The notes under the pieces were generated by a model. That model saw only the letters and a program-made list of their open reading frames with translations, was not told the origin of the DNA and ran no database searches. The position numbers and the translations under genes are program-made. Below are positions 7,284 through 12,018 of a DNA stretch of 12,114 bases, in pieces; position 1 is the stretch's first letter; each line of letters starts with the position of its first letter. Source of the stretch: Candidatus Poribacteria bacterium (GTDB lineage Bacteria; Poribacteria; DTPJ01; WJIO01); NCBI GenBank assembly GCA_014730235.1, contig WJIO01000339.1:1-12114 (forward strand). Direction: 5' to 3'.

Positions 7284-8543
7284 ATGGGTATGACAATTAC
7301 ACAAAAAATACTTGCAGCTCATGCGGGTAAAGAATCAGTTGATCCCGGTGAGTTGATTATGGCAAAGCTTGATGTAGTGTTAGCTAATGATATAACTGCT
7401 CCTATAGGGATAACAGAATTCAGAAAGGCCGGAGCGAAGAAAGTCTTTGATAAAGATAAGATCGTGTTGGTAGCGGATCATTTCGTTCCTAACAAAGATA
7501 TCGCATCAGCCCAACAGACAAAGCTAATGAGAGATTTTGCCAGGGAACATGAAATTACAAATTATTTTGATGTAGGGAATATGGGTATCGAACATGCTCT
7601 GCTTCCCGAACAGGGGTTGGTCTTACCCGGTGATACTGTCCTTGGCGCGGACTCCCATACATGCACCTACGGTGCGCTGGGAGCTTTTTCCACAGGTTCC
7701 GGCAGTACCGATTTTGCCGCAGCCATGATTACAGGAGAGGCATGGTTTAGAGTTCCTGAGTCAATGAAATTCATATTCTATGGTAAAAGACAAAAATGGG
7801 TCAGTGGAAAAGACCTGATCCTGCATCTGATAGGTGACATTGGAGTAGACGGCGCGCTCTACAAGGCAATGGAATTCACCGGCGAGGCCATCGCTGATCT
7901 CTCAATGAGCAGCAGACTTACAATGTGCAATATGGCCATTGAAGCCGGCGGGAAATCGGGTATAATTGCACCGGATAAAGTCACCCTGGATTATGTGGAA
8001 TCCAGAGCTAACCGGGGATACCGTATATACGAAAGTGATCCTGATGCTGAATACTGTGAAGTCAGAGAATATGACGTAAGTAAAATCAAGCCCCAAGTCG
8101 CTCTGCCGTTCCTTCCTGAAAATACCGTTCCCATAAGTGAAGTCACAGATATTAAGATCGATCAGGCAGTTATCGGATCATGCACCAACGGCAGATTGGA
8201 AGACCTGAGAATTGCAGCCCAGATACTGCGGGGTCACAATATTCATCCTGATGTTCGTCTCATAGTTATTCCAGCCACCCAGAGCATATACATGCAGGCA
8301 TTATATGAAGGCTTAATCGAGATATTTATCGAAGCCGGTGGTGTAGTCAGCACGCCTACATGCGGACCCTGTCTTGGCGGATATATGGGTATACTGGCCG
8401 AAGGTGAAAGGGCCATATCCACCACCAACAGAAATTTCCGAGGACGTATGGGACATGTTGACAGCGAGGTATATCTTTCAGGCCCGGCCGTGGCCGCCGC
8501 ATCGGCTGTTTTAGGCAAAATCGCAAGCCCAGAGGAGTTGTAA
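7284..8543 (+). CDS. leuC: 3-isopropylmalate dehydratase large subunit
   Basis: A 419-residue aconitase-superfamily protein of the short LeuC type (about 420 residues, shared with archaeal isopropylmalate/homoaconitate hydratases). With LeuD it isomerises 2-isopropylmalate to 3-isopropylmalate in leucine synthesis. The [4Fe-4S] ligands are C300 (GSCTNGR), C360 and C363 ([13 protein letters not shown]); other signatures are [34 protein letters not shown] and [12 protein letters not shown]. The start at 7284 has GAGGT 8 bp upstream; ATG two codons later is an alternative. The stop is followed after 1 bp by leuD, whose Shine-Dalgarno lies within the end of leuC, so the two are translationally linked. 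The short LeuC type also includes homoaconitases and dimethylmalate or citramalate dehydratases, so leucine synthesis rests partly on the leuB-like gene downstream. Confidence 0.95.
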
Positions 8544-8544
8544 A

Positions 8545-9036
8545 ATGAAATTAGCAGGTAAAGCATGGAAATTTGGTGATGATGTAAATACTGACGAAAT
8601 TATTCCGGCTCGTTATCTTAATACCAGCGATCCCGATGAATTGGCATCCCACTGTATGGAGGATATTGACCCGGATTTCATGAATAAAATGTCTCCCGGT
8701 GACATTATTGTTGCTAACAAAAATTTTGGATGCGGCTCTTCCCGGGAACATGCTCCTCTGGCTATCAAGACAGCAGGTATATCCTGTGTCATAGCAAAAA
8801 GCTTTGCAAGGATTTTCTATCGTAATTCAATAAATATAGGTCTGCCGATCCTGGAAAGTGAAGAGGCAGCAGCAAAGATACAGGAAGGCGACAGGTTAGA
8901 GATTGATCTGGCATCCGGGGTTATAAAAAACCTGACTAAGGATGAAACATACCAAGCTCAACCCTTTCCCGGTTTTATGCAACAAATCATATCGTCTGGA
9001 GGACTTTTGAATTATGTAATGTCCAGACAGAACTGA
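8545..9036 (+). CDS. leuD: 3-isopropylmalate dehydratase small subunit
   Basis: A 163-residue swivelling-domain subunit that pairs with LeuC, of the short form usual with this LeuC type. Signatures are [16 protein letters not shown] (10-25), [12 protein letters not shown] (60-71) and [20 protein letters not shown] (84-103). The specificity loop reads YLNT at 24-27. Homoaconitases of this group are known for YLRT, whose Arg binds the longer substrate, so lack of Arg favours isopropylmalate or a similar small substrate. GAGGAG ahead of the ATG lies inside the leuC 3' end. The beta-barrel gene starts 15 bp downstream. Confidence 0.95.
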
Positions 9037-9051
9037 AAAGAGGGGATTTAA

Positions 9052-9693
9052 ATGAAAAAACTAATATTAATCAGCTTTGTTCTTTTACTGGTAACAGTTT
9101 CCTATACAAGTGCCAGGGATTTTGCCATAGGAGTAAAAGGCGGCCTTAATCTGGCAAGGGTAGTGGAAAAAGAAATAGAACAGGATACGGATTTCAGAAC
9201 AGCAGGGATCGCCGGGATTTTTGTAACCATAAAAATGGGCGGAGAAATGCTGGCTATACAGCCTGAAGTTTTGTTTTCTATGAAAGGTGCGGAAACTGAT
9301 TCAGACTTACTCAGCAATAATATTCTGGACGTAAGTATGCAGTTGGACTATGTGGAAATACCTATACTGGCTAAAATCTCTTTTCCCATTAGTGAAACCC
9401 TTACGCCCAATATATTTATAGGCCCGGTTATTGCACTAAATACAAAAGCGAAAGCCAAATATGAAATACTTGGCGTTGAGCGAGAGGATGATCTGGAAAA
9501 TATAACTGATTTAGACATGGGGCTTGTTTTAGGCGGTGGAATAAAAATAAACAAGCTATTAGTGGAAGTCCGATACACCATGGGCCTTAAATCCATATAT
9601 GAATTGGATACAGCAGAAGACATATTCGATTTTGACAGCGAAGCTGATGTAAGAAATCAGGTAATATCCATTATGGCCGGATTTTCATTTTAA
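9052..9693 (+). CDS. PorT-like outer-membrane beta-barrel protein
   Basis: A 213-residue protein with a clear Sec signal peptide (MKK, a hydrophobic stretch 4-17, probable cleavage after SYTSA at 21). The mature part begins FAIGVKGGLNLARV, typical of PorT-like/OMP_b-brl_2 barrels, and has alternating amphipathic strands: MLAIQPEVLFSMKGA, LDYVEIPILAKISFPI, LTPNIFIGPVIALNTKAK, MGLVLGGGIKINKLLVEVRYTMGL. It ends in VISIMAGFSF, with the terminal Phe common in outer-membrane barrels. About 8 strands are plausible. It is expected in the outer membrane; its function is unknown. It sits between leuD (15 bp gap, GAGGGG site) and the leuB-like gene (23 bp gap) on the same strand, so it looks cotranscribed with leucine genes, which is unexpected. 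Confidence 0.85.
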   Translation: MKKLILISFVLLLVTVSYTSARDFAIGVKGGLNLARVVEKEIEQDTDFRTAGIAGIFVTIKMGGEMLAIQPEVLFSMKGAETDSDLLSNNILDVSMQLDYVEIPILAKISFPISETLTPNIFIGPVIALNTKAKAKYEILGVEREDDLENITDLDMGLVLGGGIKINKLLVEVRYTMGLKSIYELDTAEDIFDFDSEADVRNQVISIMAGFSF

Positions 9694-9716
9694 TAGATTT
9701 TTACTGGAGGATATTA

Positions 9717-10781
9717 ATGTATAAAATAGCAGTGCTTCCCGGCGATGGAATCGGTCAGGAAGTGGTAAACGAAGGTTTGAAGTGCATAAAAACCGCAGCT
9801 GAAAAAACAGGCTTTGACTACGAAACTGTTGACTACGATTTTGGCGCGGAGAGATACGCCGCCGAAGGAATGAAAGGCGAACCTCTCCCGGATTCTGCAC
9901 TGTCTGAATTAAGAGAAATGGATGCAATATTCCTGGGTGCAATAGGCGATGAAAGAAAAGTTCCACGTGGTGTATTGGAAAAAGGCATCCTGTTGAAAAT
10001 GCGCTTCAGCCTTGATCTATATATAAACCTGCGTCCTATCAAGCTGTACCACGGTGTAGATACTCCCCTGAAAGACAAAGGTCCGGAGGATATTGACTTT
10101 ATTGTTGTAAGAGAAAACACCGAAGGACTATACGCGGGCGTAGGCGGCTTCCTGAAAAAGGGAACACCAGACGAGGTAGCCATTCAGGAGATGGTCAATA
10201 CCCGGAAGGGTGTTGAAAGATGCGTAAGATACGCCTATGAATTGACAAAGAACGATCCTGATCGCAAGCGTCTTACCCTGTGTGACAAGGCCAATGTCCT
10301 GACTTACGCCCACGATCTATGGCGTCGAACTTTTGATGAAGTAGGCGGGGAATACCCGGAAGTTGAAAAAGACTACGCCTATGTTGACGCCACAACCATG
10401 TGGATGGTAAAAAATCCCGAATGGTTTGAAGTAATAGTAACATGCAACATGTTTGGTGACATTATTACAGATCTTGGGGCCATGATCCAGGGGGGAATGG
10501 GTATCGCCGCATCGGGAAACATTAATCCCCATGGAGTTTCTATGTTTGAACCGATTCATGGTTCTGCTCCTAAATACAAAGGCACCAACAAGGCCAATCC
10601 CCTGGCAGCTATATGCGCCGCAGGGATGATGCTGGATCATCTGGGTGAAAAAGATGCCGCTAAAAGCATTGATAAGGCCATTGCCGAATCATTGTCCAGC
10701 GGGAAGATCAAAGACCTGGCAGCCGGTAAGATGGGCATGGGAACCACAGAAGTTGGTGACCTTGTGGCTGAAATGATATAA
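9717..10781 (+). CDS. leuB: Isocitrate/isopropylmalate dehydrogenase family, probable 3-isopropylmalate dehydrogenase
   Basis: A 354-residue beta-decarboxylating dehydrogenase that would oxidise and decarboxylate 3-isopropylmalate to 2-oxoisocaproate. The signatures are LPGDGIG (7-13), the substrate-binding arginines R96, R106 ([16 protein letters not shown]) and R132 ([12 protein letters not shown]), catalytic Y139 and K191 (CDKANVL), D224 (YVDATTMW), metal ligands D248 and D252 ([17 protein letters not shown]), and the nucleotide loop HGSAPKYKG at 281-289. Position and partners (leuCD upstream) favour leuB, but family members include tartrate, isocitrate and homoisocitrate enzymes. K286-Y287 in the nucleotide loop resembles NADP-type isocitrate dehydrogenases, whereas Thermus LeuB has Asp-Ile there. 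The start has GGAGG at 6 bp. It is the last gene of the compact leu block. Confidence 0.88.
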
Positions 10782-10793
10782 TGTCTACCGCTA

Positions 10794-10849
10794 ATTAACC
10801 ACAGACATTTTAAGCAAAATATCTGTAGCTAGCCATATCAGAGGTTAAT
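10794..10849 (+). promoter_or_regulatory. Structured leader ahead of the MFS transporter
   Basis: A hairpin with 11-nt arms (10801-10811 and 10816-10826, one mismatch, loop AAGC) is followed by no T-run, so it is not a standard terminator. Directly before it, ATTAACC (10794-10800) can pair with GGTTAAT (10843-10849), enclosing the hairpin and covering part of the AGAGG ribosome-binding site of the mini-cistron at 10853. This could control translation; seven A/T-rich pairs may also arise by chance. Confidence 0.4.
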
Positions 10850-10852
10850 ATT

Positions 10853-10888
10853 ATGAAATGTGAGTATTATAACTGGTATTATGAATGA
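10853..10888 (+). CDS. Putative 11-residue Tyr/Trp-rich leader peptide
   Basis: The frame reads MKCEYYNWYYE then TGA: four Tyr and one Trp in eleven residues. AGAGG (10840-10844) stands 8 bp before the ATG. The stop overlaps the start of the transporter in the four bases ATGA (10885-10888), the usual arrangement for translational coupling. The transporter has no Shine-Dalgarno of its own, so ribosomes finishing this mini-cistron probably start it. The composition suggests sensing of charged tRNA-Tyr or tRNA-Trp, as in leader-peptide attenuation; that is inference. No family is recognised. Confidence 0.5.
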   Translation: MKCEYYNWYYE

Positions 10889-12018
10889 TTTCACTCCGTA
10901 AAGATCTTATATACCTTCCGGCTTTACTCATGGATATGTGCGTAGGCAGTATAATCCTGGGTGTTACTTACTTTGCGTCCCGACTAGGTGCTTCACCGCT
11001 GCAAATAGGCGTAATGGCATCAGTAAATACCGTAATGTATGTAATATTCTGCCGCATATTTGGTAAGCTTTCCGATAGAGTTCAACGCAAGCGAGTGCCC
11101 CAGTTGGCCTGTCTTAGCCTTTCTGCTTTGTATCTTGCTTTGCCTTTATGCAAACAGCTTTACCAACTTATGGTTTTGTTTCCCCTCAATGGTGTTGCTC
11201 TGGCTGGTTTGTGGCCTGCCTTGGAAGCCTGGATTGGTGAACGTGACGATGGTCGTCCTTTAATCCGACGGGTGCAGATGTTTAATGTGGCCTGGAGCCT
11301 TGGGCTTGTTATAGGATATGTTTCAGGGGGTTATATATACGATCTTAATGTATTTGCACCTTTTTATCTTGGTTCATCTGCCGCTTTTATAGCGGCTTTG
11401 GCTTTGACTATCCAGCCCAGTGCTCCGGTTACAAAAAATTTCCATGAGGAAACTGTTGAGGTGGAAACCGGTAGAAAATTGACCATGAAATACCTTATGG
11501 TAAGTTGGGCTTCTATATTCATCGGCTGGATGACTTTGGGCATCCTGCGTTACATTTTCCCAAAATTCATAGAACAACTGGGTATGCCTCCCAGGGTTGC
11601 TGGACTGTTGATGCTATGCCAGACCGGGGCCCAGTTGATTATGTTCTCAATCCTTGGTTCAACTGAACGTTGGCATTATAAGTTTTATCCCCTTATAATC
11701 TTCCAGGTTCTGGCTGCTGTGGGTTTTATTTCTATATGGTTTATAGATATTCCCTATATGTGGGCTTTTGGCTTAATTCTAATAGGTTTAAACACCGGAA
11801 TGGCTTATTTTTCCAGCATGTATTACAGCCTTAGCGGTCATGCCGATCTTGGCAACAAAACCGGATGGCATGAATCCATACTTCACAGCGGCGCGTTGGT
11901 CAGTACCATCACCGGCGGAGCTTTGGCCAATTACGTTGATTTGAAAGCACCTTATTTATTTTGCGCTGTTGTATTAATTGTAGGTATACCTGTGCAGATG
12001 TTTATATTGAAAAGATAA
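10885..12018 (+). CDS. Major facilitator superfamily transporter
   Basis: A 377-residue inner-membrane protein with about 11-12 hydrophobic segments in two halves joined by a hydrophilic loop (about 177-203, PSAPVTKNFHEETVEVETGRK). The MFS motif A is present after the second segment: GKLSDRVQRKR at 60-70. A polar stretch before the last helices (SMYYSLSGHADLGNKTGWHES, in part 311-331) resembles that of other small MFS carriers but does not identify the substrate. An in-frame TGA lies directly before the ATG, so translation cannot start earlier; starting at Met1 keeps the first helix (LIYLPALLMDMCVGSIILGV) whole. No Shine-Dalgarno is visible, and the start overlaps the stop of the upstream mini-cistron. 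The Tat-signal gene follows 18 bp later, a possible operon partner. Substrate is unknown; aromatic compounds would fit the leader only by inference. Confidence 0.9.
   Translation: MISLRKDLIYLPALLMDMCVGSIILGVTYFASRLGASPLQIGVMASVNTVMYVIFCRIFGKLSDRVQRKRVPQLACLSLSALYLALPLCKQLYQLMVLFPLNGVALAGLWPALEAWIGERDDGRPLIRRVQMFNVAWSLGLVIGYVSGGYIYDLNVFAPFYLGSSAAFIAALALTIQPSAPVTKNFHEETVEVETGRKLTMKYLMVSWASIFIGWMTLGILRYIFPKFIEQLGMPPRVAGLLMLCQTGAQLIMFSILGSTERWHYKFYPLIIFQVLAAVGFISIWFIDIPYMWAFGLILIGLNTGMAYFSSMYYSLSGHADLGNKTGWHESILHSGALVSTITGGALANYVDLKAPYLFCAVVLIVGIPVQMFILKR

Follow-up and report, generated by a model that had tools for sequence, protein, structure and literature searches.

The M. tuberculosis ppe2 gene, which has no Shine-Dalgarno (SD) sequence, depends on translation of the upstream open reading frame (uORF) uPPE2, mainly by termination and reinitiation at an AUGA overlap, and its expression was found to be strictly uORF-dependent (PMC11260477). 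Coupling at overlaps is widespread and was strict in 13 of the 14 overlapping pairs tested in H. volcanii and E. coli (PMC6728339), and short leader genes lying a small distance ahead of structural genes have been proposed as a general means of raising translation (PMC4833913). The short leader ORF of E. coli iraD also ends in a stop codon that overlaps the target start and is translationally coupled to it (PMC5574718). As for transporters, translational attenuation has been described for cmlA (PMC8876359) and fexA (PMC5418344).

The window, i.e., the whole stretch of 12,114 nucleotides analysed here, contains an 11-codon mini-ORF immediately before the gene of an MFS transporter (Table 1). 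The mini-ORF begins with ATG at 10853-10855, 8 nt after the AGAGG motif that constitutes its own initiation signal, and ends with TGA at 10886-10888, within the ATGA shared with the transporter start. Its peptide contains four Tyr and one Trp. The ribosome-binding site, the peptide and the ATGA overlap had all been placed correctly in the preliminary description.

Table 1. Features of the mini-ORF/transporter locus, with positions in the window.
Feature	Position	Strand	Basis
3-Isopropylmalate dehydrogenase (leuB-like), upstream neighbour	9717..10781	+	NF002898 above cut-off
Shine-Dalgarno-like AGAGG for mini-ORF	10840..10844	+	Sequence; duplex -5.3 kcal/mol
Mini-ORF MKCEYYNWYYE, 11 sense codons	10853..10888	+	Sequence
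Two tandem 12-nt units, GTATTATAACTG / GTATTATGAATG	10864..10887	+	10/12 identical; create both YY pairs
ATGA stop/start overlap, 4 nt	10885..10888	+	Sequence
MFS transporter (377 aa) with a very weak SD of its own (-1.1 kcal/mol)	10885..12018	+	PF07690, E=5.4e-31; start supported by alignment with L003

We regard ordinary termination-reinitiation, with the mini-ORF acting as a generic ribosome-loading cistron for the transporter, as the probable, though by no means assured, explanation of this layout. Ribosomes would bind AGAGG at 10840, translate the 11 codons, terminate at the TGA ending at 10888 and then reinitiate at the overlapping ATG at 10885; we thus infer both translation of the mini-ORF and reinitiation at the transporter start. 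The peptide itself is probably irrelevant, and the Tyr run would be a reflection of a duplicated AT-rich 12-nt unit. Dependence of transporter translation on the mini-ORF is plausible, the weak downstream SD (-1.1) being consistent with it.

The locus resembles uPPE2-ppe2 in having a uORF with an SD, an AUGA overlap and an SD-less downstream gene; however, uPPE2 is controlled by a B12 riboswitch and the dependence of ppe2 was shown by mutation, whereas no riboswitch match was found at the mini-ORF and its coupling is predicted from sequence. The likeness to iraD lies in the short ORF, the stop codon over the target start and the coupling (probable here), but iraD is regulated by CsrA and its SD is sequestered by structure, while the transporter has neither an SD nor a stable structure. 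A stop/start overlap or a short distance, with coupling or raised translation shown or proposed, is also shared with the overlapping pairs and leader genes mentioned above, although those are mostly full genes, or leaders located 10-11 bp away. The attenuators of cmlA and fexA lie before exporter genes and act at the level of translation, the cmlA leader peptide being 9 aa long; they differ in being drug-induced, and in cmlA alternative stem-loops mask the target SD, whereas no such stems or SD are present at the transporter. The layout had been put forward as a previously undescribed arrangement. That claim was wrong, because AUGA-coupled uORF control in ppe2 (PMC11260477) and leader attenuation of the transporters cmlA (PMC8876359) and fexA (PMC5418344) precede it, and the mini-ORF and transporter are probably an ordinary case of translational coupling, of a kind already known.

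The position of the transporter start was then evaluated. The start codon (ATG, 10885-10887) is directly preceded by an in-frame TGA at 10882-10884, as had been reported, and the frame contains no alternative ATG, GTG or TTG before residue M16. The N-terminus MISLRKDLIYLPALL aligns from its first residues with MTIKRNLIFLPALL of the nearest homolog, L003, which belongs to the same order and is 50% identical. A start at ATG 10885 is therefore credible, as the homolog begins at the same place, a stop lies immediately upstream and the reading frame offers no other start. A programmed frameshift fusion was discarded as the main route, as this TGA stands in the transporter frame and a slip at GAA would have no re-pairing option. 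By family the protein is an MFS_1 transporter; it passed no substrate-specific NCBIfam cut-off, and no PDB relative was found by sequence at E 0.001.

SD strength was scored as pairing energy with CCUCCUUU at genes called in two samples of the 5.5 Mb genome that carries the locus, one of 1.03 Mb (genes of at least 180 aa) and an enlarged one of 1.44 Mb (genes of at least 150 aa); an SD above -3 kcal/mol was defined as weak. In the 1.03 Mb sample the chosen starts had a median of -6.5, indicating that SD sequences are strongly used, and a duplex of -5 or better was reached at 7.8% of random positions. Against this background the contrast between the mini-ORF (-5.3) and the transporter (-1.1) argues for coupling, and the earlier remark that the transporter lacks a ribosome-binding site was borne out by an almost absent SD. 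In the 1.44 Mb sample, weak SDs occurred at 82 of 872 genes (about 9%), nearly all of which have no such uORF, a point that weighs against coupling. Among the 34 long-gene pairs with an ATG stop/start overlap, instead, the second gene had a weak SD in 13, so SD-poor reinitiation looks ordinary in this genome. Part of the difference between 13/34 and 82/872 may be methodological, because the chosen starts came from a simple SD-favouring rule from which overlap starts were exempt, and some weak-SD genes are probably mis-started. By eye, several weak-SD genes in the sampled contigs begin in an AT-rich ...ATATG context devoid of an SD.

Although these data are in favour of coupling, the frequency of the architecture is not. 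SD-bearing ATG uORFs of 5-45 codons overlapping a gene start were found at 7 of 570 genes in the 1.03 Mb sample, against 10.35 +/- 2.5 in shuffled upstream regions, and the architecture is therefore not enriched; the larger sample contained 11 among 872 genes. Exact overlaps were also not concentrated at weak-SD genes, occurring at 1 of 82 (the mini-ORF discussed here) and at 10 of 790 strong-SD genes. When a loose distance was allowed, nearby uORFs seemed commoner at weak-SD genes (5/50 vs 19/520), but this difference was discarded since it disappeared with exact overlaps in the larger sample. These counts also speak for a chance uORF, i.e., an AT-rich intergenic stretch that happens to contain an ATG...TGA over the start of a transporter initiated directly through its weak SD in an unstructured AU-rich region. 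This alternative is possible, if less likely than coupling. It is in line with the shuffle expectation, with the absence of enrichment at weak-SD genes and with the lack of conservation: no match to 10770-10900 was detected in the other 96 genomes searched, an absence that also counts against coupling. On the other hand, AGAGG is well spaced for the mini-ORF and the transporter SD is almost absent in an SD-using genome. A chance uORF stays a serious rival because close orthologs are lacking, none having been found by scans of genome contigs, and the same-order comparison consists of one other genome. The region is single-copy in its own genome, which excluded a repeat element.

In that one same-order genome, a xylose-isomerase-like gene precedes the homolog, which possesses an SD of its own (-5.5). 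The start of the homolog is overlapped by the frame MHGLTHENGDK (SD -3.1), which lies partly in the upstream gene and has nothing in common with MKCEYYNWYYE; no aromatic leader peptide was found at this homolog, which is 50% identical and sits at another locus. Orthologs with unrelated upstream sequence or with their own ribosome-binding site had been named in the preliminary description as evidence against its reading, and the only same-order homolog presents both, although with 50% identity and another genomic position its orthology is uncertain. At phylum homologs elsewhere, 42% identical or less, no SD-bearing frame overlapping the likely start was detected. The leuB-like gene, a member of the leucine pathway, ends 71 nt before the mini-ORF; in the same-order genome leuB (80% identical) precedes what we read as a WD-repeat-like protein and not the transporter, so the leuB-transporter linkage is not conserved. 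Positions 7284-10781 of the window hold leucine-pathway genes, namely the large and small subunits of isopropylmalate dehydratase, as we interpret them, followed by leuB; they are interrupted at 9052-9693 by an outer-membrane beta-barrel gene, TDE1717-like and below the curated cut-off.

The trp, phe and his leader peptides, each enriched in one type of residue, regulate biosynthesis operons by means of a transcription terminator. The mini-ORF shares the enrichment but neither the terminator nor the control of a biosynthesis operon. The preliminary description had proposed stalling or attenuation at the Tyr and Trp codons, and we rate as very unlikely an aromatic-amino-acid-responsive leader in which pausing at these codons or nascent-chain arrest would set reinitiation at the transporter. 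Five aromatics in the ten codons after the start have a probability of about 0.001 under the amino-acid use of the genome, and at least five were counted in 0.27% of the shuffled and 0.85% of the real short ATG frames of 8-15 residues. The aromatic content is thus moderately unusual for one short frame; nevertheless, in about 13% of short frames some single class accounts for half or more of the residues, and multiplying the rate of the layout by that of the aromatic content over some thousands of genes would give roughly 0.5 frames of this layout and aromatic content per genome by chance. Moreover, if the 12-nt units are a duplication, the two Tyr pairs would represent one event and not independent selection for Tyr.

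The RNA and the gene context also argue against such a leader. A trp-type attenuator has a terminator/antiterminator after the leader, whereas no + strand terminator was predicted between 10782 and 10930 and the fold of this region was no better than shuffles (z = 0.31). It also controls genes for the amino acid concerned, while the product here is an MFS_1 protein assigned to no substrate-specific family, whose homologs adjoin enolase-superfamily and xylose-isomerase-like genes, not aromatic metabolism. In ermC/cmlA-type translational attenuators a stem-loop sequesters the target SD; at the transporter the SD is almost absent, leaving nothing to mask, and no unusually stable structure was predicted. 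No Rfam family was found in the whole window at gathering thresholds, and a riboswitch or known RNA was accordingly set aside. A Tyr/Trp-responsive leader throttling reinitiation by codon pausing alone, with no RNA switch, in this poorly studied phylum is highly improbable. That the transporter needs the mini-cistron for its translation, as originally proposed, is plausible and fits the ATGA pairs of the genome, while stalling or attenuation at Tyr/Trp codons found no support in fold, terminator, conservation or context. The neighbours of the homologs suggest that the substrate may be a carbohydrate or sugar acid rather than an aromatic amino acid. Members of the transporter family (L003 2660-3817; L004 2645-3790, - strand) have mandelate racemase/enolase-superfamily genes as neighbours in two phylum families that are divergent from each other, a hint of sugar-acid transport.

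Two further alternatives were considered. TATTAT (10865-10870) or TATAAC (10868-10873) might be a -10 box, in which case transcription would start just ahead of ATG 10885, by a few bases, and the mini-ORF would never be on the transporter mRNA. These hexamers match at five of six positions 17-20 nt upstream of the start, and TTAATA-N17-TATAAC can be read in the region; however, -10-like hexamers close upstream were not enriched at weak-SD genes (9.8% vs 9.2% at strong-SD genes) and promoter-like sites in the region were near the shuffle number (7 vs 5.6), leaving a leaderless transcript a slim prospect. The mini-ORF might also be a former N-terminal extension, once in frame with the transporter, the ATGA overlap having arisen through an indel of one base. 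A single base separates any such overlap from a fusion, and N-terminal extensions of about 20 residues are present in some phylum homologs, but such extensions in other families differ in sequence and the nearest homolog has its start at the equivalent position, a short way after a stop, so that this origin is hardly credible.

If the coupling of mini-ORF and transporter is real, this would be one more gene with a poor SD that receives its ribosomes from a short cistron in front of it, which is of importance mainly when start sites are annotated or when such genes are to be expressed elsewhere; the case points to no new sensing mechanism. Finally, in transporter homologs of other phylum genomes, several of them related (L008, L014, L016, L026), a three-codon frame consisting of ATG-AAG-CGN or AGA-stop was observed directly before the likely transporter ATG (e.g., ATGAAGCGGTAGATGCGC).
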